A stretch of 24,199 nucleotides of DNA, taken from a virus. Numbering within the stretch: the stretch's first letter is position 1; every line of letters begins with the position of its first letter. Positions 9,328 to 21,099 of the stretch are shown one piece after another. The DNA lies in the IMG/VR virus record IMGVR_UViG_3300030419_002173, positions 3,042 through 27,240 of that record; one strand, given 5' to 3'. Made by a program: the position numbers and the translations under genes. Below the pieces are notes generated by a model. That model did not search any database, was not told the DNA's origin, and worked only from the letters and a program-made list of their open reading frames with translations.

Positions 9328-9734
9328 TAACTTTTTTTATTCATGGCTCTAAAAGTTTTAGCTAAATTGTATCTTTTAGATCCTGGCGGGCATGTTTCAC
9401 TCCCGAATTTTTTTCCTGTGCATGGTTTATCTTTACGCATGTTTTTAGTGGCACTTTGAATCCATTTATCTTTACCACCACCGCTTTTAGCTCCAACTCT
9501 ATCCATTGCTTTATTGTGAGCAGTTTTAAAACTATCTCCTTTTTGCATGCTGGATTTCATGTGGGCCATATGCTTAGCTGAATGATGTTCAGCATGTTGT
9601 TTCATTTGCTTATTCCCACCAGTGCTAAAATTAGTTCTAATTGGAATTCCACCACTAGGATACAAATCTTTATTAGATGAAAAATATTTTTTCATCCCCG
9701 AACCAGGGAATGCTTTGTTATCCTGATAACCCAT
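9327..9734 (-). CDS. Small basic His/Lys-rich protein, 135 aa
   Basis: Starts MGYQDNKAFPGSGMKKYFSS. The middle is rich in His, Met and Lys (MKQHAEHHSAKHMAHMKSSM), and the last 45 residues are basic (KDKWIQSATKNMRKDKPCTG, then YNLAKTFRAMNKKS). The DKWIQ.A start and LAKTFRAM end are similar in layout to a short basic module found in many giant-virus and phage proteins, possibly nucleic-acid binding. There is no catalytic motif. Start and stop overlap with the neighbours (TAATG at both ends), so it is coupled in a run of basic small proteins. A role in DNA condensation inside the head or in packaging is only an inference. Confidence 0.8.
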   Translation of the reverse strand: MGYQDNKAFPGSGMKKYFSSNKDLYPSGGIPIRTNFSTGGNKQMKQHAEHHSAKHMAHMKSSMQKGDSFKTAHNKAMDRVGAKSGGGKDKWIQSATKNMRKDKPCTGKKFGSETCPPGSKRYNLAKTFRAMNKKS

Positions 9735-9940
9735 TATCTAATTTCGCAGCCTTTGCCTTTTTTTGCAGCGCCCCAACTACCTTTACCGCCATGAGAGAAA
9801 CCAGCACGACCACCTTTTTTGTAGCCTTTTTTGATTTCGCCAATTACTCTTTTCTTTTCAGCTCTACGGTTAGGATTAGATTTTTCTGCATCTATACGAC
9901 CTACTTCTTCAAGTAGATTCATTCTTCCTGTGTTTGCCAT
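9734..9940 (-). CDS. Small basic protein, 68 aa, with GGRAGF motif
   Basis: Starts MANTGRMNLLEEVGRIDAEK, then a basic helix (NRRAEKKRVIGEIKKGYKKG) and the motif GGRAGFSHGG (residues 43-52) followed by a lysine/glycine-rich tail. The same GGRVG[FY] type motif recurs in the giant proteins of this window. The function is unknown; strong positive charge suggests nucleic-acid contact. Its initiation region is duplicated almost exactly at the 141-aa gene (1753-1780). The stop overlaps the next start (TAATG). Confidence 0.8.
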   Translation of the reverse strand: MANTGRMNLLEEVGRIDAEKSNPNRRAEKKRVIGEIKKGYKKGGRAGFSHGGKGSWGAAKKGKGCEIR

Positions 9941-9960
9941 TTTAGCTCCTTATATTATTA
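9933..9960 (-). repeat. Second copy of the 28-nt initiation block
   Basis: This is the partner of 1753-1780: 26 of 28 bases are identical. It spans the start of the 68-aa gene, its AAGGAG site and the stop codon of the 79-aa gene. Confidence 0.85.
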
Positions 9961-10197
9961 AGATTTATCCATTGTAGACACAGAGGAATAAGCTCTTTTA
10001 CCCATAGCTTTTTCCATGCCTTTAGACTCATCTCTTCTAGCTTTAAAGCTTTGAGATTTAGTCGACTCAGCACCGTCTCTTGCGCCTAATGATTCATCCA
10101 GTCTGTCGTTGTAACCTTGAGATTTTCCACCCGTAGATTTTTTAGTTCTACTTGCGTATGGAAACCTAACATTACTTCTAACTCCGTTCTGTCTCAT
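9958..10197 (-). CDS. Small basic Ser/Lys/Arg-rich protein, 79 aa
   Basis: Begins MRQNGVRSNVRFPYASRTKK, then a polar, glycine- and serine-rich region (STGGKSQGYNDRLDESLGAR) and a charged helical end. It is highly basic at the start, low in hydrophobic residues and probably largely disordered. I do not recognise a family beyond the type 'small basic virion-cluster protein'. It is coupled to the holin-like gene by a TAATG overlap at 10197 and lies in the same compact operon. Confidence 0.78.
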   Translation of the reverse strand: MRQNGVRSNVRFPYASRTKKSTGGKSQGYNDRLDESLGARDGAESTKSQSFKARRDESKGMEKAMGKRAYSSVSTMDKS

Positions 10198-10586
10198 TAT
10201 TTTTTTCCTCCGTTTTTAAATATCTGTGTTCCCTTTATACCATATATACTCGCAACGACAAGTATCCACAAATTTGTGAACCATGACGGGAGCTGCTGGA
10301 ACTGCTCAAAAAACTCCTTTATCTTTGCAGAAGCATTTGGATCGTCCGAAAACACCCCCCAGGCGATCACCAAAATTGGCAGCGTGAGAATTACGAGGAC
10401 GGCCTCGTCCTTCCAGTCCGATTGACGGGCTTCTAAAAGTTTGCCCTGGTAAGCTTCCTCTCCAGAGGCCATACGAGCAGCATGCATATGCTGTGCGTCC
10501 GCCATAGCCATTTTAGTTTCTTGACGTTTTTTAAATATATGTGTACCAGCCTGTAAGGCTACTTTAGCTAAACTGAACCAAGCCAT
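10197..10586 (-). CDS. Holin-like membrane protein, 129 aa
   Basis: Two hydrophobic segments are clear: residues 62-79 (AVLVILTLPILVIAWGVF) and 102-117 (WFTNLWILVVASIYGI). Before them lies an amphipathic, Met/Ala-rich helix (TKMAMADAQHMHAARMASGE) and the motif SDWKDE (56-61). The layout of a charged helix with 'DWKDE', then 'PIL..a..VF.DDP', 'FF..F..LP.W' and 'a.IYGIKG' resembles the family of holins of gene-transfer agents (Pfam GTA_holin_3TM). Holins make pores in the inner membrane to start lysis. It is unusual in sitting in the middle of the packaging and head genes. No endolysin gene is seen in the window. A structural transmembrane protein is the alternative. Confidence 0.72.
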   Translation of the reverse strand: MAWFSLAKVALQAGTHIFKKRQETKMAMADAQHMHAARMASGEEAYQGKLLEARQSDWKDEAVLVILTLPILVIAWGVFSDDPNASAKIKEFFEQFQQLPSWFTNLWILVVASIYGIKGTQIFKNGGKK

Positions 10587-10780: not shown

Positions 10781-13318
10781 CTAAGATTTTGGACCTTTTA
10801 AAGTTCGGACATCTTTAGCTTTCATTCTTGCGATGTCACGTTTAGTCTCATCTGCCATTGTTTGTTTTACCAAAGATGTATCAGCTCGCAGTATAGCTAA
10901 TTCTTCGTTTTGTGCAAGCTTATCATCCTCAATACCTTCTTTAGATAGTATTTTAGCTTGTTCTACAGACTTTCTTTGCTCCATTTCTTCTTGTTTTCTC
11001 ACAGTATCCATCGCTTTTAAGTCAACTTCTCTTGATTTAAGTTTAAGTAATGGATCATGATCAAATTGAGAAGTAATTTTCTTCTCTTCTTTCATGAAGT
11101 CTTCTGTAATTTCAGCAATCAATATTGCTTTTCTAGCTTCTATCTTTTGAGTAATATCTTGTATTTGAGGTGCTATCTGTTGTTGCATCTCAGGACTTTG
11201 TTGAGACATCTGTTGTAATTGAGCTAACATCTGCATTTCTTGTGGAAATTCCATTTGAACTTGTTCTTGTGCCATTAATGAAATGTGTTCTAAAATATTT
11301 TTTTCAACTGCAGCCATGACGACAGGATTATTTCTTACCATGTTCAAAGCCATAAAATGTAAGTGCGCGGTAACGTGCGCTCTATGATCTTGACCTGAAA
11401 ATGCTTGAAAAGGTTTCTGTGCTAAAGCATCAATGTGTTCTAACGCAGGGTCTTTTGGTTGCACTGGAGCAGGAGGAGGTAAGACTCTATCGATATCTTT
11501 AACTCCTAAAGCCGTATACATTGCTCTATAGCATTCATATAAGTTGTGCATTTTTGGGTTGGACATAGCTAACTGTAATTCAGTTTGAGCTACACTTATA
11601 CGTTGCGTTTGTGAAAATATATCCGGGTCTGCAACAGGTAAAATATCTACCTTGTCGTCGAAATCAGCTGCCTTGATAGTTCTTTGTGCACCAACAACAT
11701 CATAAGGATATTCTGGTGGTAAAGAAGTAGCAAATATTTTTGCAAGTAATTGAAACTCTTCTTTAAGAGATGCAAACAATCTTTTATGTATTGCACTCAT
11801 AACTCTAGAGCCTCTTTCCAATAAAGCTACAGTTGTTCCAACTGCAGCGTTTTGGTTTCCATCACCAACTTGTGAATCAGCAATGGATGCAAATCTTTGT
11901 CCTGCCGCTACTACTGTTCCTAGTAATTGAAAAAGAACTGGAGAAGGTTCTTTATACGGCAAATTCATAAATGAATCTTTTAAACTTCCACCAGGAGCAT
12001 CAACGTCTCTCCATTCCCCTGGTTGTAAAGGAGCGGCATCATCTCTAATTCTAATACCTCTCATTTTAAATCCGGCCGGTAAATTAGATAATGTACCAGC
12101 ATCTAATAATTGGCGGAGAGCAACCGTTGCGGTTCTGCTCAATCCGCCAATCATGTGTATTAATCCGAAACCATAAAATCCTAGTCCAGGCAGAAATTTG
12201 AAATGGACAAAATATTGGATTTTCTTTTTTGTCGGATCGTTGGGCGCAAAGTTCCTTCTTACAGAAAGAACTGTACGGCTACCTGCATCGATGGTTACGA
12301 TATAAGGTAGTTTGATACCTGTTGGTTCTCCGGTTTGTGGATTGATGTCTTCGAAGCCTTCCAGGTCCAAATTTGTATGACACTCTAAAAGAGTGTAAAT
12401 ATCTTCAGGTTTAGTTTTCTTTTGCCCATCTAATTCTCTTTCTTTTTGTTTTAATGGGTCTTCAAACATTTGCGGTGTGCCTAATTCTACATCTCTATAG
12501 AATCCTGAAACTTGTTGTTTTCTAATCTCATTACCAGACATTTTTAAAACGTGAATAACGCAATCAGCATCTTCAATATTAGTTGCACTATATGGAACTA
12601 ATAAATCATCTGCTTGAACAAATTGAGAAACTGGTTGTTGTTTAACTGCATCAAAAAATACTTTTTTAAATGTAGAACCAGCTAATGGTAAATAAAACAG
12701 CATTCTATCAAAATCTTCATCATATCCTTCCATTTGATTCATCAACATGTAATTCATATAATTTTTAACTCTTTGAGACTGTTGATCTTTCTGTGGAGTC
12801 GGCATACCCATAATTTGTGTTCTTACAGGTCCTTGTGCCGGTAATAATTCTTTATACGCTTGTGCTTGGAATTGTGTAACTGCTTCTGCTAACACTGGGT
12901 GTGTTGCACCTGAAGCTCCTTGAAATGGTTGGGTTCTTTGTTGATACTTAAATCCAAGTAAGTCAAGCCCTTCAATATAAGTATTCTCCCAATCTTTTCT
13001 GGACATTTTATAGTCCATTTGTTTTTCATAAAGATCTGCTGCTAAAGGTCCTAAAACATTTTCAGGAAGCATTTCGGCTAGGTTTGCAAAATGATCATCA
13101 GGATTTCCTGGCATCAATTGTGTAGGGTCAAAGTTAACTTCAACTCCACCATCTGCTAATTCTGTAATTGCTGGTCCACCTTCTGGTGAAGGTGCTTGTC
13201 CTTCTACTTCAACGTTTACGTCAGACGCAACATCGTCTTTGTCTAGGTCTACACCTGGTATACCTGGTAATGCCTTTTCCATAGGCGAAAATTTTCTATC
13301 TTCCGGAGTATCTGCCAT
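10781..13318 (-). CDS. Portal protein, P22 type, 845 aa
   Basis: The dodecameric portal is the channel through which DNA enters and leaves the head. The N-terminal 60 residues are acidic and probably disordered. The body shows the P22-type portal pattern: SRKDWENTYIEGLDLLGFKY, then THPVLAEAVTQFQAQAYKEL with the LLPAQGPVR motif that follows, and a wing and stem region with IQYFVHFKFLPGLGFYGFGL. After about residue 660 come long, Gln/Met-rich helices (QVQMEFPQEMQMLAQLQQMS and on), which correspond to the C-terminal barrel of P22 portal. The C-terminus is charged and helical. At 845 aa it is longer than P22 gp1 (725 aa). It overlaps the 48-aa gene by 23 nt. Its ribosome site is weak (GGAT), suggesting translational coupling. 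Confidence 0.95.
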   Translation of the reverse strand: MADTPEDRKFSPMEKALPGIPGVDLDKDDVASDVNVEVEGQAPSPEGGPAITELADGGVEVNFDPTQLMPGNPDDHFANLAEMLPENVLGPLAADLYEKQMDYKMSRKDWENTYIEGLDLLGFKYQQRTQPFQGASGATHPVLAEAVTQFQAQAYKELLPAQGPVRTQIMGMPTPQKDQQSQRVKNYMNYMLMNQMEGYDEDFDRMLFYLPLAGSTFKKVFFDAVKQQPVSQFVQADDLLVPYSATNIEDADCVIHVLKMSGNEIRKQQVSGFYRDVELGTPQMFEDPLKQKERELDGQKKTKPEDIYTLLECHTNLDLEGFEDINPQTGEPTGIKLPYIVTIDAGSRTVLSVRRNFAPNDPTKKKIQYFVHFKFLPGLGFYGFGLIHMIGGLSRTATVALRQLLDAGTLSNLPAGFKMRGIRIRDDAAPLQPGEWRDVDAPGGSLKDSFMNLPYKEPSPVLFQLLGTVVAAGQRFASIADSQVGDGNQNAAVGTTVALLERGSRVMSAIHKRLFASLKEEFQLLAKIFATSLPPEYPYDVVGAQRTIKAADFDDKVDILPVADPDIFSQTQRISVAQTELQLAMSNPKMHNLYECYRAMYTALGVKDIDRVLPPPAPVQPKDPALEHIDALAQKPFQAFSGQDHRAHVTAHLHFMALNMVRNNPVVMAAVEKNILEHISLMAQEQVQMEFPQEMQMLAQLQQMSQQSPEMQQQIAPQIQDITQKIEARKAILIAEITEDFMKEEKKITSQFDHDPLLKLKSREVDLKAMDTVRKQEEMEQRKSVEQAKILSKEGIEDDKLAQNEELAILRADTSLVKQTMADETKRDIARMKAKDVRTLKGPKS

Positions 13319-13442
13319 TTTTTAATCCACTGTTGGTTTTTATAACAGGTTTCTTGCCATAAGGCAAACCTTGAGGAACTGGTCCTTTTAAAGGAGGAAT
13401 TGTCTTAGTTAATCTCTTTGGTTTAATCATTTTATTCGACAT
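13296..13442 (-). CDS. Short proline-rich basic peptide, 48 aa
   Basis: The start at 13442 follows a GGAGAG site by 7 nt, and the gene overlaps the end of the giant upstream gene by 11 nt and the portal start by 23 nt. The peptide (MSNKMIKPKRLTKTIPPLKG, then PVPQGLPYGKKPVIK) is basic and proline-rich. It is the kind of very small conserved protein that lies next to the portal in marine phages. An in-frame ATG exists further upstream (13517) but lies deep in the giant gene and has no good ribosome site. A role in portal assembly is inferred only from position. Confidence 0.65.
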   Translation of the reverse strand: MSNKMIKPKRLTKTIPPLKGPVPQGLPYGKKPVIKTNSGLKNGRYSGR

Positions 13443-16400
13443 CAAACTCTCCTGCATCTCTTGCTTCATCATAAGCACTTTGAGCTCTACCTTCTGCCCA
13501 ATCAACCTGTATTTCACCTTTAGTCATTTCGTCAACTTTTTTTCCAGTGCCAATTTCTTCCATTCCTTTAGTACCACCTAAAACGTCATGAAGTTCTTCT
13601 ACTACTTCACCATCAAAATCCACATCGTCAGGACCTGAACGCACTGGAACAGAATCTTCAACTATAAATTCTCCCTGATTATAAAATGATCCATCTGCAT
13701 CACCTTCCCATTTAGGAGCCTCATATGTAATTTGGAAATCTTGTTCATAAGCATTTTTACCACTGATATGATAATCCTCACCAATTCTTTCTATATGAAA
13801 TCCTGGAAGAAAATCATCTGTACCTGTAAACGACCACATACCATCACCGTGATATGTCATTTTATCATTTACCTTATCTATAAATTTTGGAAACCATACA
13901 GGCATTTTAGTGCTTGATCTTTCAATCATTTTAATTGGACCAGGGATCGGGTTACGCGTAGCGCCTTTTAATAATTTATCTAAACCTAAATATTTAAGAG
14001 CACCAATAGCACCACTTGTAACTAAAAGTTTATTAAAGTCTCTTCTATTCATTCCTTTGTCGGTTAAGGTTTCTTCAATAACCTCATCTACATTTCTACC
14101 AGCAACATAAGGAGCTAAAGACTTTTTAAGAGCATTGTATTTATTAGCTGCCATTACATATCCAAATGGTAATGTTATATCTAATCCCATTTCAATATTC
14201 TTACCAGCAATGGTTGGCCATTTAGATTGTCCTTGCGCTATCATTTTATCTTCCATTCCTTCAATTAAAGAATCTAGTCCTGTTTTTTCTGAAAATGCGC
14301 CGGGCATTAAATTTTGAAATGCTTCTGTAAATAACCCTGTTCCTTCTAATTTATTATAAGGTTGATCTGTTAACCAACTATCATCAACTCCTTCCATATA
14401 CTTTTCTCCCATTCCTATAGAAGCTGAAGATCTAGGTTCTGCTTCTTTTATTTTAAACGCAGGTCGTGTTGCTAATTTTTGTAATAAATCAATTGATACA
14501 AAAGGAAGTTTAGCAGAAACTTCTGCAACATTCATTCCAGCTCTTAACATTCTAGCTGCGTAGTATGGCCAGTTATCTACCCTTGCTACATCAAGAATTT
14601 TTCCTGGAACACTCTTACCGGTATTCCAACCTTGTTCCATTTCAAACATTTGGTTTTTAATCCATTCTAAAATCTCTTCATCAGATTTATCGTCATTAGG
14701 AGTGCCGTCTGCAAATCCAACACGGCCACCTTCTCTTAATCCTTGTGGAGGAACTTTAATCATGTCTTTTATATCTATGGCCCAATTCATAGAGTCATCC
14801 ATTTGTTTTAATCTTTCATTAAGTAATGGATCATCTTTTCCTACTGACTTAGGCATTTGTAATCCCATTAAATCTTTTATAATAGCTTGTAAATCTTTTC
14901 CGTGTTGTTCTGTTACTTCTCTCATAGTCATATTTCCTTCAATAAGAGCATTAATTGCTTTTCCAAATCTTTGCGCAGCTTCAGGATTTTTAATTAACCA
15001 TTGAGAAGACCCTAGTCCTGCTTCTGGTAAAGGCATTCCAAAAAAACCAGAGAATATCATGAAATCTAATGCCGCTGCTGTTGCACCTATTGGTAATTTT
15101 ACACCTTTAGGAAGAGGGGCGCTTTGAAACATATTTGCTAATCTATTTCTTATCCCTCTAATAATCATGCCTGCTCTATTTTTATTGACCTTTAGATCTT
15201 TAACAATTGATTTATAAACCTTAATTGGATTTGGTTTGTCTCCATAAATTTTTCCATCAACCATAAACTGAATACCACCATGCGCTTTTGATATTCGTTG
15301 AATTTCTTTAATAAATTGTTTTTTAGTAAATTCTCCAGATTTATATTTTTTATGTGCATCTCTTACTCCAAAGTTTGCAGCTCTACTTACCAGTTGAACT
15401 CTATATGGATTAATTTCTACTCCTTCAATATGATGCACTTGTGCCTGAGAATAAGCTCTTATTCTTCTTTGAATAAAATCTTCATCTGGCATTGCACCAT
15501 TATTGAGAGCTTTATACTCCTGTATGATGGCATCCCTAGCTAAATACTGACCAAGTGCTAAAGTTTTGCCGCTTGCTTTATCTTTTATTCTTTTAGAACC
15601 ATAAAGTTCTGCTTGAGTTGCATAATCTTTTGTAGCTCTTGAAAAAGATCCTTTTCCAAAAGTATTATCAATTTGTTTAGCTAAATTATCGTATGTAAAA
15701 GTAACTTTTCCTTTTGGAGTTGTCATATCTGTAAATGTAACTTGTTTCCAAGCTGGTTGTCCTGTTTTAGAATCTATCGCCTGCCAGTCAACATAACCGT
15801 TTTTGTCTTTAGGCCAATTTTTTTCAAATCTTAAACTTTTGCCATTAAACGTTCCAGACATTTTAATTCTATCACCAGTTTTAGTTCCAACCGATGCTTC
15901 CCAAAAATTCTTCCATAATTTTCCTTCAGGCCCTCCAGAAGGTTCAAAATTTCCATATCTTTTAGCTCTAGTATCAGCAGAAATAAGTTTGTTAGCCTCT
16001 TGTCTAAAAGTTTGTTCTCTTAATTTAGGATCAGGAATTGCATTAATTCTTTTTATAACTTGTTTACTATTAGATGATAATTCATTAATAATTTTTATTG
16101 CATCTGCTTCCCCTCTTATAAATTTTAATCCTAATTTGTCCTGAGTCATATTAATATTACTTACAGTCCATTTATTATCGAGCATTGTTGTCTTACCCAT
16201 TTTATTTAATTTCTTTGCCACCTCTTCTCTGGTTAGCTCTACATTTTCAGGTTGTAATCTCCATTCTTTAAAATCGGCATCAGACATTCTTTTTGAATGA
16301 TATTTTTTACTCAATCTTTCATGTTCATCTAAAATTAAATCTAAATTTGCATCCGTTGCAGCAACTGAACTAAATCTAATAGGTGGTTTACTTTTCTTAA

Positions 16401-16926
16401 AACCTCCTCCAGGATAAAAATCAAATTGATAATACCAATTTTTATTATGTTTAGGACCAGAAGAAACTAAATTAATTCCTTTTGGAAGATCTGCTTTTAT
16501 AGCATCTACTTGAGTAGAAGTTAATTTAACCCCACCCCCAAATTTATCTCTACTAGTTGTTGCTCCTTCAATGTTTCTATATTCCCCTGCAATATTTTTA
16601 TCGTACGAAGTAGGTTTATATGTTGTTTGATCTCCTGATAATTTTCTTTTCTCATATCCCGACAATCCATATGTAGGTTTTACTAATCTTACTTTGTTCT
16701 CTGGTGCAAATGGTTGTCTCGCCAATCCACCTTTAGCTGCCATCATCTTGTTAGGTAAAACTGGTCCTATTGGTTTAGGTGCCCAAGGATTAACTGGTTT
16801 AGTTGGGTCCTCCGGTAAAGGATTACCACCGGCAAAAAACCTTTCACCAAGTGGTTTAAGTGGTGAAGTTACATTATCCGCTGATTCAATGTTTCCGGTA
16901 GATGGGTTAAATATTATTCTGCTCAT
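13432..16926 (-). CDS. Giant protein of unknown function, 1164 aa
   Basis: The start codon overlaps the previous stop (TAATG). Seen in order: a Pro/Gly-rich N-terminus with AAKGGLARQPFAPENKV (63-79); a basic mixed region; a helical region with an HHI...N...H motif (HHI 498-500, N518, H525); a hydrophobic stretch of about 20 residues (611-630, GATAAALDFMIFSGFFG) that may insert in a membrane; GGRVGF (733-738); a long helical region; the segment MNRRDFNKLLVTSGAIGALK (959-978) resembling a twin-arginine motif followed by a hydrophobic stretch; and an acidic C-terminus. I know similar long proteins from uncultured marine phages, where they lie with terminase and portal, but not their function. 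An internal virion protein ejected with the DNA, like the large ejection proteins of podoviruses, is a reasonable inference, not a demonstration. Confidence 0.85.
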   Translation of the reverse strand: MSRIIFNPSTGNIESADNVTSPLKPLGERFFAGGNPLPEDPTKPVNPWAPKPIGPVLPNKMMAAKGGLARQPFAPENKVRLVKPTYGLSGYEKRKLSGDQTTYKPTSYDKNIAGEYRNIEGATTSRDKFGGGVKLTSTQVDAIKADLPKGINLVSSGPKHNKNWYYQFDFYPGGGFKKSKPPIRFSSVAATDANLDLILDEHERLSKKYHSKRMSDADFKEWRLQPENVELTREEVAKKLNKMGKTTMLDNKWTVSNINMTQDKLGLKFIRGEADAIKIINELSSNSKQVIKRINAIPDPKLREQTFRQEANKLISADTRAKRYGNFEPSGGPEGKLWKNFWEASVGTKTGDRIKMSGTFNGKSLRFEKNWPKDKNGYVDWQAIDSKTGQPAWKQVTFTDMTTPKGKVTFTYDNLAKQIDNTFGKGSFSRATKDYATQAELYGSKRIKDKASGKTLALGQYLARDAIIQEYKALNNGAMPDEDFIQRRIRAYSQAQVHHIEGVEINPYRVQLVSRAANFGVRDAHKKYKSGEFTKKQFIKEIQRISKAHGGIQFMVDGKIYGDKPNPIKVYKSIVKDLKVNKNRAGMIIRGIRNRLANMFQSAPLPKGVKLPIGATAAALDFMIFSGFFGMPLPEAGLGSSQWLIKNPEAAQRFGKAINALIEGNMTMREVTEQHGKDLQAIIKDLMGLQMPKSVGKDDPLLNERLKQMDDSMNWAIDIKDMIKVPPQGLREGGRVGFADGTPNDDKSDEEILEWIKNQMFEMEQGWNTGKSVPGKILDVARVDNWPYYAARMLRAGMNVAEVSAKLPFVSIDLLQKLATRPAFKIKEAEPRSSASIGMGEKYMEGVDDSWLTDQPYNKLEGTGLFTEAFQNLMPGAFSEKTGLDSLIEGMEDKMIAQGQSKWPTIAGKNIEMGLDITLPFGYVMAANKYNALKKSLAPYVAGRNVDEVIEETLTDKGMNRRDFNKLLVTSGAIGALKYLGLDKLLKGATRNPIPGPIKMIERSSTKMPVWFPKFIDKVNDKMTYHGDGMWSFTGTDDFLPGFHIERIGEDYHISGKNAYEQDFQITYEAPKWEGDADGSFYNQGEFIVEDSVPVRSGPDDVDFDGEVVEELHDVLGGTKGMEEIGTGKKVDEMTKGEIQVDWAEGRAQSAYDEARDAGEFDVE

Positions 16927-19619
16927 TAATTTTGTAATAACACGTTTATTCTACTTGTTAAACTCCTCTGCATTTGTTTTCTTTGAGTTTGGTTGTAATC
17001 TGCGTATATACCCAAACCTTCAACAACCATTCTAAGTCTTTCTAATAAATCATCCAATTCTGATTGTCCAAGACCTGTTACAAAATCTCCTTGATTACCA
17101 GATTGATCTTGTTTCAATAGTCGTAGAGTTTCTTCCATATCAAAACCTTCATCAAACTCGGGATCTAACACAGAACCATGGCCCCAGTGATAATTATAAT
17201 TTCCTCCTAAAGAATAACCAACACGTCCGCCATCAGCCATACCGAATAATTTTCTAAAATTAGATAATGCTGATGCTTGCGCTTGTTCTGGTGTCATGTC
17301 TAATGTTATATCTTTAACAACTAATTGAAGTTGATCTTCTGTTACATCACCTGGTGCATAAGGTTTCATACTATCTACAATTTCTTGTCTTAATCTTTGT
17401 AATGGAGATCCGCCACCGTCAAATCCTAAACGAACAATACCACCTTCTGCATATAAACCCTCATCTGGATCATAATCAGGATCATCAGGGTCAAAATTAG
17501 GGTCATCTCTATAAGGTCGTTTATTTTTGTAATCCCATCTATCTGATGGATCTCTTTGATTAACCCAATCGTCTGTATCGGTAAAAATTTGATCTTGGTC
17601 TGCTTTTGAGATACCTTTGTATCTACCTTCACCTTTTAACACCTTATTTACTTCTTTCATCGCTTCAACCGGTTCTAATGTTTTTATATAATTAATATGA
17701 TCGGTAATAGTATAAGTTCCGGGAGCCGTGGTCTTTGTTTTTGAACCAAACTTTTGCTTCCAGAGTTGATAATCATACTGGAAGTTTCCAGTTCCTTTCC
17801 CTAATTCTTCATACATTTTTTTAGCCTCAGCTAATGCTTTTTCAATCGCATCATTTCTTGCCTCTAATTTTTTAAATTCTTCATATCCCATTTTAGTACC
17901 ACCAGTAGAATCTACTTCAGCCATCTTCCCTTGGTTCATGTGTAATTCATCAACTAACTTGTTTAAATCATCATCTGTTAATTTAGATATGTCTATTGTT
18001 TCTGAAACTAAAGTTGGTTTTAATTTTTTTTCTTCCATCATTTTCTTAACTAACTCAGGATGTTTAAGTTCACTTGTATCTATATCAATCTCAGGCTTAG
18101 CACCTATTTTTTGTCTATGCATGTCATAGAAATGATCAATAAGGTCTTCTCTGCCATCTCTTAACATTGCTTCTAATGTTTCTTTTGGTGGAATTGTTTG
18201 TTCTGCATTTGGATCAACATTTTTAACTAACCAATCTATTCTATCCTTGTATATATCATCTTTAATAATTTCTTCAGGGGATTTAGATGTTTTAGTACTC
18301 TTACTCCACGGTCCTTCAATCACGTTGCTTTCTAATTCTAAATTGTCTCCTGGTTTAGCAGTGATACCTAATTTTTCAGAAATTTCATCCCAACCTTCAT
18401 CTCCTTCAGAAATAACTTTAAATACGCTATCCATAGTGTCATCTTGCTTGTAAGCTGGATCAGTTGTATCTACTGCAGTTTTCCAATCCATTTTGTTATA
18501 CGCTTCAGGATAATTTCTTTTCAACGCATCTAAATATTTTTTCTTCTTTTCTGCATTATCAACAATTGCTCGCATTACATTTTCAGCTTTATCTTTATCG
18601 CTCATTCCTTTTATATTAGAATAAAAATGATCATCACCTTTAAAAATATCTATACTTTTTTGAGCTTCTTCAGCATGAGCTATTAATTCTACTTCATTCA
18701 TGTAATCTAACGCGTTCTTCGGTCCGTCAACCTTGATTGGTTTAATCTTATTCTTTTTCATCCAATCGACCATTGCATTTGGACCAATGAAGGTATCTCC
18801 TTGATTAAACATGTCCGCTTCAAAGACTTCGTCAAATTTATCAAATATTTTATCTCCAAAATGATATCTCCAAATTCTTGGTATATCAGGAGCAAACATA
18901 TCGGCCCCAGCCCAATGATATTTGCCTTCTTTAACAGCATTATAGATTTCATCATCAAGTTTAATGATTCCCGCTTCGTGGAGCTTGGCTAATTGGTAAG
19001 ATAAACCTCTATACATGTCAGATCTTCCTTCATAAGCTCTACCGTGATATTTTCTCTTAAAAAATTTATCTCTTGCAGCTTTTTCCGCAGCTTCTTTCTT
19101 AGCAATGTTTTCAGGTTTCATTTCATCAGCTAATTTTTTTAATTCGTTCAGTTTATCTTGAAGTGATCCCATAATTCCGGTATCACCAACAAAATTTTCT
19201 TGGCCCCGAGTCTTCATAACTTTAGCAATATCTTTTCCATCTTTTCTTAAGATATCTGCTGACTTAATGTTGTTAGTTCTTAACATCTTAAGAATTCCAA
19301 CGTTATATTCTAAATTTTTTAATTGTTCTCTTCCTAATTTAATTCCTTCATCATCAATCTTCTTCAAGACTTTCATGATGTCATCAAAAATATCTTTTTC
19401 ATAAGTTTTAAAAAGATAATACTGTCTATCTCTAGTCATGCCTTTATTAGCAAGACTATATTGTGTTTCATTTATCGGATTTCTAAAACGAATTCCAATT
19501 GCTGGAAGATCACCAATATCTTTACGAGTTAGGAGTTTTAAAACTCCTTCCTTGTCTTTATTGCCTCTTAAATATTTGTTGATAAGTTTTAGTAACTCAT
19601 CCCAACTGCCTTTAGCCAT
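16926..19619 (-). CDS. Giant helical protein of unknown function, 897 aa
   Basis: The start (MAKGSWDELLKLINKYLRGN) follows AAGGCAG and overlaps the terminase stop by 8 nt. Most of the chain is charged and helical, with many Lys/Glu pairs and coiled-coil-like segments. Near residues 185-260 is a patterned segment (ARDKFFKRKYHGRAYEGRSD, later IPRIWRYHFGDKIFDKFDEV) that I recognise in large proteins of other marine phages, without function. The last quarter is Asp/Pro/Gly-rich (DPNFDPDDPDYDPDEGL) and holds two glycine motifs, GGIVRLGFDGGG (726-737) and GGRVGYSLGG (797-806). No enzymatic motif is visible. Its place right after terminase and before the 1164-aa protein suggests the two work together, for example as internal core or ejection proteins. 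Confidence 0.85.
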   Translation of the reverse strand: MAKGSWDELLKLINKYLRGNKDKEGVLKLLTRKDIGDLPAIGIRFRNPINETQYSLANKGMTRDRQYYLFKTYEKDIFDDIMKVLKKIDDEGIKLGREQLKNLEYNVGILKMLRTNNIKSADILRKDGKDIAKVMKTRGQENFVGDTGIMGSLQDKLNELKKLADEMKPENIAKKEAAEKAARDKFFKRKYHGRAYEGRSDMYRGLSYQLAKLHEAGIIKLDDEIYNAVKEGKYHWAGADMFAPDIPRIWRYHFGDKIFDKFDEVFEADMFNQGDTFIGPNAMVDWMKKNKIKPIKVDGPKNALDYMNEVELIAHAEEAQKSIDIFKGDDHFYSNIKGMSDKDKAENVMRAIVDNAEKKKKYLDALKRNYPEAYNKMDWKTAVDTTDPAYKQDDTMDSVFKVISEGDEGWDEISEKLGITAKPGDNLELESNVIEGPWSKSTKTSKSPEEIIKDDIYKDRIDWLVKNVDPNAEQTIPPKETLEAMLRDGREDLIDHFYDMHRQKIGAKPEIDIDTSELKHPELVKKMMEEKKLKPTLVSETIDISKLTDDDLNKLVDELHMNQGKMAEVDSTGGTKMGYEEFKKLEARNDAIEKALAEAKKMYEELGKGTGNFQYDYQLWKQKFGSKTKTTAPGTYTITDHINYIKTLEPVEAMKEVNKVLKGEGRYKGISKADQDQIFTDTDDWVNQRDPSDRWDYKNKRPYRDDPNFDPDDPDYDPDEGLYAEGGIVRLGFDGGGSPLQRLRQEIVDSMKPYAPGDVTEDQLQLVVKDITLDMTPEQAQASALSNFRKLFGMADGGRVGYSLGGNYNYHWGHGSVLDPEFDEGFDMEETLRLLKQDQSGNQGDFVTGLGQSELDDLLERLRMVVEGLGIYADYNQTQRKQMQRSLTSRINVLLQN

Positions 19620-21099
19620 AATACTGCCTTTTTATACCAGGAAGTTTTTCTTCAACATAATCCTCAGGGTGTTGAATCAATCCACCTTGCCTGAACCTCA
19701 TGACTGCTTGTGTTGTACTATCCACAAGGTCGTCATGATCCCCATGTGGAAACGCTGCGCATTCCTCGATCACTTCTTCGGCAAACTTTTGAGTGGGCGC
19801 CCATATCGTTCCGCTCTCAAATAGCGGTGCGACCGAGTTAACACGTACATGTTTATCATTTCCTTTGCTCGGTGTAAAGTTTACAACAGGAATATCCATC
19901 TGTCTTAATTCATAGGTTAATGGCAATCCAGCGGCCTTAGATTCGATTAAAACTGTCTCTGGATCCCAATATTTGTACGCTGCAAGGGCTCTTCTACGCA
20001 ATTCTGGGAACTCCCAACGTCCTTTAATTGCGTCTAAAAGCATCAATGCTTGTTTTGGTTCGTTCGGATCGGGCCTAAATATGCCCCAAGTGGTAATTGC
20101 ACTAAAATCGGCTGTTTCTTTTTTCAAATATGCCGTATCGTACGACTGAATTACATGTTCTAACGGTGGAACCCAGTCTCTATCCCATTTTTGCCACCAT
20201 TCTCGCTTAATTAAGGCTCCTTCTTCTGATGTTGGACGTTGCATCCACTGTGCATTCCATTTTCCAACCGGTAATGTCGCTTTTACCTTCTCTAATTCGT
20301 CTAATTTCCAATATTGAGGCCAAACTGGCTTTGCATTTTTAGTGTCATCGTCCAAAATTGCCGGAAATTCTACAACTTCCCACTGATCAGACTTAACTTC
20401 ACCCTGATTTTTTAATAAAATTCCAGTTAAGTCCTTTGTTGACCACCTTGTCATAACTAAAATTATTTTTCCACCTGGTTGAAGCCTTTGACGTGGTCCT
20501 GAAGTGTACCATTCGTACGCATTTTCCATTGCAGATTCGGATAACGCATCTTGTTCCGAGTGTGGATCGTCAATAATCAATAAATCAGCTCCACGGCCCG
20601 TGATTGCTCCTCCAACACCAGCGGCGAAATATTCACCACCCTGGGCTGTCTCCCAACGGCCCGCGGCTTTTGAGTCTTCTTGTAATTTTGTTTGAAAAAT
20701 TTTTGCGTATTCCGCAGAATCAATTAAATGTTTTGCTTTTCTACCAAAACGAATTGCAAGTTCTCCAGTGTGTGTCGCTTGAATAATTTTTAATTTTGGT
20801 TGACGGCCCACCATCCACGCTGGAAGCAAGAAAGAGGCAAATTCAGATTTAGTATGCCTAGGTGGCATATTAACAATTAACCTATTTATCTCGCCTGTGG
20901 CTAATTTATTAAATTTTTTTGCAATGTGCCTGTGATGGGGCCCCTCAATAAATTCGGGCCATACGCACTTAACAAAAGATAGAAAATCGTCTTTAGCTTT
21001 GTTCTGTATCTTTTTTTCAGCATGCATGACCTGATATCGTCTGAATTGCTTCCGGACATCCGCAGGTAACTTGCTAATATCAACATTATTCAAGTCCAT
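19612..21099 (-). CDS. terL: Terminase large subunit, 495 aa
   Basis: TerL packages DNA into the procapsid using an ATPase motor and a nuclease. The ATPase part has a Walker A-like PPRHTKSE (79-86), the Walker B LLIIDDPHS (173-181) and the coupling motif VMTRW (215-219). The RNase H-like nuclease part has Asp321 in IQSYDTAYLK, Glu386 in VLIESKAAG, and Asp residues in GDHDDLVDS (453-461). The region GGAITGRGADLLI is typical of the family. Length is normal. The start at 21099 has no strong ribosome site, and an alternative in-frame start cannot be excluded, but the N-terminal helical region fits relatives. No small terminase gene is recognisable next to it. It begins the late operon. Confidence 0.97.
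   Translation of the reverse strand: MDLNNVDISKLPADVRKQFRRYQVMHAEKKIQNKAKDDFLSFVKCVWPEFIEGPHHRHIAKKFNKLATGEINRLIVNMPPRHTKSEFASFLLPAWMVGRQPKLKIIQATHTGELAIRFGRKAKHLIDSAEYAKIFQTKLQEDSKAAGRWETAQGGEYFAAGVGGAITGRGADLLIIDDPHSEQDALSESAMENAYEWYTSGPRQRLQPGGKIILVMTRWSTKDLTGILLKNQGEVKSDQWEVVEFPAILDDDTKNAKPVWPQYWKLDELEKVKATLPVGKWNAQWMQRPTSEEGALIKREWWQKWDRDWVPPLEHVIQSYDTAYLKKETADFSAITTWGIFRPDPNEPKQALMLLDAIKGRWEFPELRRRALAAYKYWDPETVLIESKAAGLPLTYELRQMDIPVVNFTPSKGNDKHVRVNSVAPLFESGTIWAPTQKFAEEVIEECAAFPHGDHDDLVDSTTQAVMRFRQGGLIQHPEDYVEEKLPGIKRQYYG

Follow-up and report, generated by a model that had tools for sequence, protein, structure and literature searches.

Polymorphic toxins consist of a constant delivery part and an exchangeable C-terminal toxin part, and they diversify strongly. 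Phage T4 loads Alt and its internal proteins into the head by means of an N-terminal targeting segment and delivers them with the DNA. Few viruses on Earth rival pelagiphages in abundance, and the majority of pelagiphage genes still lack an explanation. Polyvalent proteins are very large proteins that terminase-portal phages encode near their virion genes and for which packaging and injection have been predicted (Iyer et al. 2017, PMC5512222); PBECR5 is a polyvalent-protein domain that is thought to be injected, and the text of that paper names HNH once only, for GmrSD (PMC5512222). The pelagiphage HTVC010P has a genomic island with a ribonuclease and an internal virion protein (PMC6487183, PMC3909814), and a survey of 82 HTVC023P-type genomes reports eight unannotated core genes, with neither HNH nor endonucleases in its main text (PMC9599517). 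No earlier description of the locus that is analysed here was found in the literature searched.

This locus lies in a stretch of 24,199 nucleotides (hereafter the window), which comprises bases 3042-27240 of the 27,240-base IMG/VR record IMGVR_UViG_3300030419_002173. In its portal protein it shares 62% identity with Pelagibacter phage HTVC027P and 51% with HTVC023P, so the window is a fragment of an HTVC023P-type podovirus; because it covers only 24 kb of a fragment of 27 kb, it does not include the genes that follow the tail module. PHROGs confirms the terL, portal, capsid and co-chaperonin genes. An initial annotation had described two giant uncharacterised proteins between terL and portal, here called W897 and W1164 (Table 1). 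This was borne out: both frames are present exactly as described and lie inside the packaging/head operon, terL and W897 overlap by 8 nt, W897 and W1164 are joined by TAATG, and the pair, said to fill a quarter of the window, occupies 25.6% of it. The probability that 897 codons stay open by chance at the window's GC content is ~1e-28, and both frames are kept in relatives with dN/dS <1. A 113-nt gap separates W1164 from the portal gene; the initial annotation noted no gene there, which requires correction since a conserved small ORF starts in it.

Table 1. Features of the terminase-portal locus and associated elements (positions in the window).
Feature	Position	Strand	Remarks
terL, large terminase subunit	19612..21099	-	PHROG_38, E 1e-109; upstream neighbour of W897
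W897, 897-aa protein, first giant gene	16926..19619	-	N-terminal ~440 aa conserved in clade, modular beyond
Optional W897 cassette between GGIVRLGFDGG and GGRVGYSLGG	17238..17439	-	Absent in L003/L007, L011
W1164, 1164-aa protein	13432..16926	-	N-cap + payload + C-module
N-cap, aa 1-67	16726..16926	-	Pro-rich; 94-96% identity in nearest relatives; predicted unstructured
Payload, aa ~68-730	14735..16725	-	Not similar to any relative, to phage records or to PDB sequences
HNH-like core (putative), aa 494-546, VHHIEGVEINPYRVQLVSRAAN...	15289..15447	-	Leave-one-out profile of 14 other cores; weak Pfam GH-E
Hydrophobic stretch in W1164, aa 611-629, LPIGATAAALDFMIFSGFF	15040..15096	-	
Junction motif GGRVGFADG, aa 733-741	14704..14730	-	Relatives' homology restarts here
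C-module, aa 733-1164	13435..14730	-	57-97% identity within clade; homologue in clade C (hhalign 99.9%)
Conserved RRxF segment + hydrophobic run, RRDFNKLLVTSGAIGALKYLG	13990..14046	-	Twin-arginine-signal-like but internal
C-terminal beta-rich domain, aa 1005-1160	13447..13914	-	Model pLDDT mostly 70-89
Small basic Pro-rich ORF, 44 aa, MIKPKRLTKTIPPLKGPVPQGL...	13296..13430	-	Overlaps portal start; conserved in three clades
Portal protein	10781..13318	-	PHROG_1216, E 3e-68; downstream neighbour
68-aa protein that also has the GG motif, KKGGRAGFSHGG	9734..9940	-	

The interval between terL and portal differs in content among relatives. In HTVC027P it holds gp41 (483 aa; QGZ17822) and gp42 (892 aa; QGZ17823) and in 023Pt_psg01 proteins of 615 and 751 aa, so that the gene order looked for in relatives of the window recurs in both; these counterparts occupy the same position as the window pair and are annotated as hypothetical, and gp42 has the N-cap/payload/C-module plan of W1164, although N-cap and payload sequences are unrelated to the window's. 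DSL-LC04 has a single 825-aa PcfJ protein between terL and portal (Pfam PcfJ, E 5e-9), HTVC023P, which was isolated on the same host strain as HTVC027P (HTCC1062), has a single 201-aa gene there, and CRP-901 has a PBECR5 nuclease protein between its portal and capsid genes (E 3e-15). These varied contents indicate that the interval is a variable accessory bay rather than a constant component of the virion.

Alignments with relatives (numbered L) show that the ends of W1164 are conserved and that its payload is swapped at fixed junctions. In BLAST comparisons only aa 1 to ~66 and ~700-730 to 1164 align. In the most extreme case, contig 3300002483_000106 (L003/L007) is 100% identical to the window in terL, 99% in portal, 96% in the N-cap and 97% in the C-module, and nothing aligns across the ~660-aa middle. 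DNA homology stops on the N side at 16726-16748, the end of the N-cap (L007, L008, L009), and restarts at 14731 (L009), 14732 (L018), 14732 (L011) and 14734 (L008), at the GGRVGFADG codons. The GC content of the payload is 32.3%, versus 41.8% in the N-cap. HTVC027P and L071 likewise share 99% identity in terL and 98% in portal and have unrelated gp42 middles. The plan of constant ends and variable middle occurs in three clades: the window's (A), that of HTVC027P (B) and L035-L057 (C). Their C-modules are homologous (hhalign A-C 99.9%, B-C 99.2%); their N-caps are not homologous to one another. W897 is modular like W1164, with an optional segment flanked by two GG motifs, and the first giant genes of the three clades have the GG motif alone in common. 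The hypervariable middle of W1164 was not visible to the initial annotation, which had one sequence before it. Two other readings of W1164 were rejected: a Tat signal in the RRxF segment, owing to its internal position and weak profile (Pfam TAT_signal E 0.48 in L017), and an intein, since no intein family occurs among the 25 families listed for 41 proteins and, by inspection, payload edges have neither a Cys start nor an HN end.

The payload junctions are marked by a short peptide motif, R-x-x-[FYL]-x(2,3)-G, with forms such as RENFAxG, REGFALG, RVGFADG and RIGFADG. It brackets the payload on the N side in 35/42 and on the C side in 39/42 complete proteins, counts that are non-independent within a clade and involve only three N-cap types; its background is 0.07 per 65 aa in payload interiors and similar elsewhere. 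The motif closes each of the three unrelated N-cap types; in the window, the N-side copy is an imperfect one, reading RQPFAP at the junction, with RDKFGGG at aa 126. The strict form GGR[VIA]G[FY] recurs in HTVC027P gp82, the window's 68-aa protein and every clade's first giant gene; it is absent from the other ORFs of the HTVC027P stretches examined and from all HTVC010P and HTVC023P ORFs. Its codons vary between clades and the peptide is kept, so the constraint appears to act at the protein level, and this variation in codons led us to reject recombination that relies solely on a DNA site at the GG motif.

Payload comparisons show horizontal movement together with purifying selection. The 42 payloads fall into 16 groups, some of which cross clade boundaries: the payloads of A_L018 and HTVC027P gp42 share 43% identity, those of A_L008 and C_L048 41% over a short stretch, and those of B_L071 and C_L052 29%. 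Between L005/L009 and L016, dS is 0.10 in the payload, 0.75 in the C-module and 0.45 in portal, and between HTVC027P and L073 it is 0.048 in the payload against 0.239. Payload dS below backbone dS implies that payloads move between backbones faster than backbones diverge, and dN/dS values of 0.18-0.57 within payloads imply that they are kept functional. The window payload had no relative among the viral contigs, phages and PDB sequences that were searched. No adjacent immunity gene that covaries with the payload was found; the small ORF that follows is conserved whatever the payload. More widely, tblastn of W897 and W1164 against 50,697 phage records gave no match, whole-protein Pfam and PHROGs scans gave sub-threshold hits only (SIMPL, E 0.0012, for W897; GH-E, 0.047, for W1164), the C-module had no match in cellular genomes, and PADLOC gave no convincing match.

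What the payloads may do is suggested by a common core. An [DEHQS]H ... N ... N-type pattern is present in most payloads, and in an alignment of the cores of 15 payloads, the window's included, one His and one Asn never vary. A loose H/N pattern was found in 22/29 payloads versus 8 expected from shuffles and a strict one in 6 versus 0.45 expected, although these patterns were devised after the sequences had been seen. When the window's core is left out of the profile, it ranks first after the training set and 0/2000 shuffles score as high. Leave-one-out profiles also recover L039 (1e-12), L088 (3e-8), L037/L040/L048 (1-3e-5) and the L011 group (8e-5); these tests gave no significant recovery of L049, L051 and L057, and L008 and L018 are unscored in them because identical copies exist under other names. 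A sister group that includes LDHIIPL-type cores has HNH proteins (Cas8f-HNH) as its sole PDB matches, at E 0.09-0.12. Payload groups L078, L087 and probably L007 have no clear H...N core, the Pfam GH-E scores are 12-15 bits against a cut-off of 25, PF01844 had no match in 37 records, and the A7 core profile gave chance matches only among PDB sequences, e.g., a sulfotransferase.

The model of an HTVC027P-type payload (L073, pLDDT 80) has an N-terminal helix-turn-helix (HTH) and, at its H...N site, strands 324-328 and 340-344 and helix 345-364; placement of the His in a strand and the Asn on a helix appears in this model only. Among the best VIA matches listed for it, only HTH matches occur (residues 1-57; best Z 6.9, rmsd 3.5, 50 aligned), and Foldseek against PDB and BFVD returned nothing at E <= 0.001. 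The model of W1164, for which a fold search had been suggested, is poor (pLDDT 49.7) except in the C-terminal domain and a helical stretch at ~aa 520-560, has a helix rather than strands after HH, and matched no nuclease of solved structure. Its BFVD rows with E <1e-3 have TM-scores <=0.06 and are meaningless given such scores and the low pLDDT, and its best VIA match (Z 6.0 over 52 residues) falls in the helical region ~500-561. Fold searches of both models thus gave no nuclease match, and no payload reaches a Pfam HNH cut-off; for these two reasons "HNH-like" is a label for what we infer. An HNH-like nuclease core is nevertheless well supported for the payload family by profile evidence, and moderately supported for the window's own payload. 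Weak HTH, MarR and AP2 matches are scattered across payload members, and a DNA-binding HTH in one payload type is supported by its model but not proven. The initial statement that neither giant has a recognised enzymatic domain needs revision for the middle of W1164, where a weak HNH-like core is significant against shuffles.

The small ORF ahead of portal provides a further connection. It encodes 44-63 aa with a PPxxGPxPQGL motif in each of the three clades, irrespective of the payload. It is missing from the HTVC027P annotation, the unannotated ORF there having 57 aa and lying at 26076-26246 of the HTVC027P record; HTVC023P gp32, beside portal, has a similar motif. In split-type relatives (L020, L050, L051 and, by inspection, L088) PPxSGPxPQGL forms the C-terminus of the payload protein, a fusion that links the payload with the small protein encoded ahead of portal.

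Taken together, we consider that the pair is an accessory, probably virion-carried, DNA-targeting effector locus with an exchangeable payload in HTVC023P-type podoviruses, and give this reading a probability of about 0.48. Several features suggest carriage in the virion: the late operon, in which the pair is associated with terL and portal, a motif in common with the tape-measure-like gp82, the constant ends, and the counterparts that have PBECR5 or PcfJ; a virion-associated role is our best guess. W1164 would be a modular carrier that is made late, alongside terL and portal. Its N-cap and C-module probably serve particle incorporation or delivery and may bring it into the head or neck, perhaps aided by the PPxxGPxPQG protein. 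It would enter the cell with the genome and act on host or rival-phage DNA, which the central payload could recognise and cut through its HNH-like core, and recombination at the junction motifs would exchange payloads and create phage-specific specificity. From sequence patterns we infer that W1164 is packaged and ejected, that it is processed at the motif, and what it targets. A bolder version, in which SAR11 phages have a particle-built system of polymorphic effector delivery, with constant ends for capsid targeting and delivery, bracketing motifs as sites of processing or docking that release the middle, and nuclease cassettes swapped in an arms race against hosts or rival phages, is possible though doubtful.

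The strongest rival is a selfish cassette of the homing type, in which an HNH homing endonuclease domain within a late gene cuts alleles with rival payloads and brings the phage little gain. An HNH-like core with DNA-binding domains, horizontal movement (dS 0.10 versus 0.75) and swapping at fixed boundaries are all consistent with it. However, no payload-free allele exists among the complete two-ended proteins, whose middles are all roughly at least 250 aa; the payloads are large, form at least 16 groups and in some cases have no core, and split-type relatives retain the payload as a separate gene. We regard the homing reading as unlikely. Somewhat less likely again is a late cytoplasmic nuclease that stays unpackaged and acts against competing phages or host DNA: the nuclease-like core and late operon would fit, but the large conserved N-cap and C-module, the motif shared with gp82 and the fusion to the pre-portal small protein would be left unexplained.

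The initial annotation proposed that the pair is an internal or ejected core that takes DNA through the envelope. Its size, late position, hydrophobic segments and conserved ends could suit such a role, which is weakened by the gene content of two cultured relatives. HTVC027P has its large virion-type genes after the tail genes, namely the tape-measure-like gp82, gp83, which matches the PHROG "DNA ejection protein", and gp85 (1342 aa), and so has a separate ejection-type module; HTVC023P infects the same host strain without the giant pair. Moreover, a hypervariable middle is unlike an essential conduit, and W1164 has no match to ejection families in PHROGs. The best reading is that the pair is not an ejection core, a role that we regard as quite improbable. 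A packaging nuclease that works with the terminase, like the HNH protein next to terL in HK97-type phages, is suggested by adjacency to terL and portal and by the HNH-like core, but is hardly tenable, since it should track terL, yet payloads are unrelated between phages with identical terL and HTVC023P packages its DNA without the pair.

A virion-carried effector locus would have wider implications. Although selection on the locus is purifying, its middle differs entirely from one phage to another that is otherwise near-identical. Should the payloads be delivered nucleases, the "hypervariable islands" of ocean phages could be given a testable mechanism, for which HTVC027P (with the pair) and HTVC023P (without it), both isolated on HTCC1062, form a cultured model pair.

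W1164 can be compared with several described systems. Like polyvalent proteins, it is large and encoded with the virion genes of a terminase-portal phage. Polyvalent proteins have nucleic-acid-targeting domains and combine several disparate enzymatic domains in one chain; in W1164 one candidate enzymatic core was found. It differs from them in that no named polyvalent domain was detected in it and in that one payload, with a repeated motif on either side, is swapped while the ends stay constant. The HTVC010P island resembles the window locus in being hypervariable, in a SAR11 phage, among structural genes, and in pairing a nuclease with a virion-type protein, but it consists of separate genes near the tail fibres of an unrelated phage type in which the GG motif is absent. 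T4 Alt and the internal proteins have no sequence relation to W1164, and likeness to head cargo is by analogy. With polymorphic toxins W1164 shares a constant part and an exchangeable part; unlike theirs, its payload is central, has no payload-specific immunity gene and is carried by a phage late protein. If the payloads are delivered nucleases, polymorphic toxins would have in this locus a counterpart that is carried by phages.

Split-type relatives (phages L020, L050, L051 and L088) carry the conserved C-terminal module in a first gene and the exchangeable payload in a separate second gene of 662–916 aa; both genes immediately follow terL in L020 and L088. In L020, L050 and L051 the payload protein bears, fused to its C-terminus, the PPxSGPxPQGL motif of a small ORF before the portal. 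Another C-terminal sequence, GG[LI]xxxLG[EV], recurs in gp41 of the cultured pelagiphage HTVC027P and in L020, L050 and L088 proteins (GGLPHILGV, GGLAYMLGE, GGLAKLLGE and GGIARMLGE), which are unrelated apart from this tail.

Within the C-terminal module of W1164, the 1164-aa protein, a conserved arginine-containing segment resembles a twin-arginine signal, although it lies deep within the protein. HTVC027P has KR in place of RR here, and GGRIGFADGP adjoins the segment in clades B and C. The GGRIGF motif is also borne by tape-measure-like HTVC027P gp82, encoded immediately upstream of gp83, the ejection-protein match. Downstream of the portal, near-identical phages differ in a small-gene cluster by insertions, deletions and changed gene order. 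In the related Roseobacter phage CRP-901, the PBECR5-domain gene has the portal on one side and the capsid on the other.

Coordinates of features in the window and its relatives
Feature	Location	Strand	Remarks
RR-x-F-(L/N/M)-K plus hydrophobic run	W1164 aa 961–979; window 13990–14046		Conserved; also in relatives
Basic Pro-rich ORF	window 13296–13430	-	44–63 aa; conserved; before portal
HTVC027P counterpart of Pro-rich ORF	HTVC027P record 26076–26246		Without annotation there
Small basic genes	window 9740–10214		Cluster downstream of portal
HTVC027P gp82	L092 6165–7184		
CRP-901 gp66	L025 12321–13880		PBECR5 nuclease domain, E 3e-15
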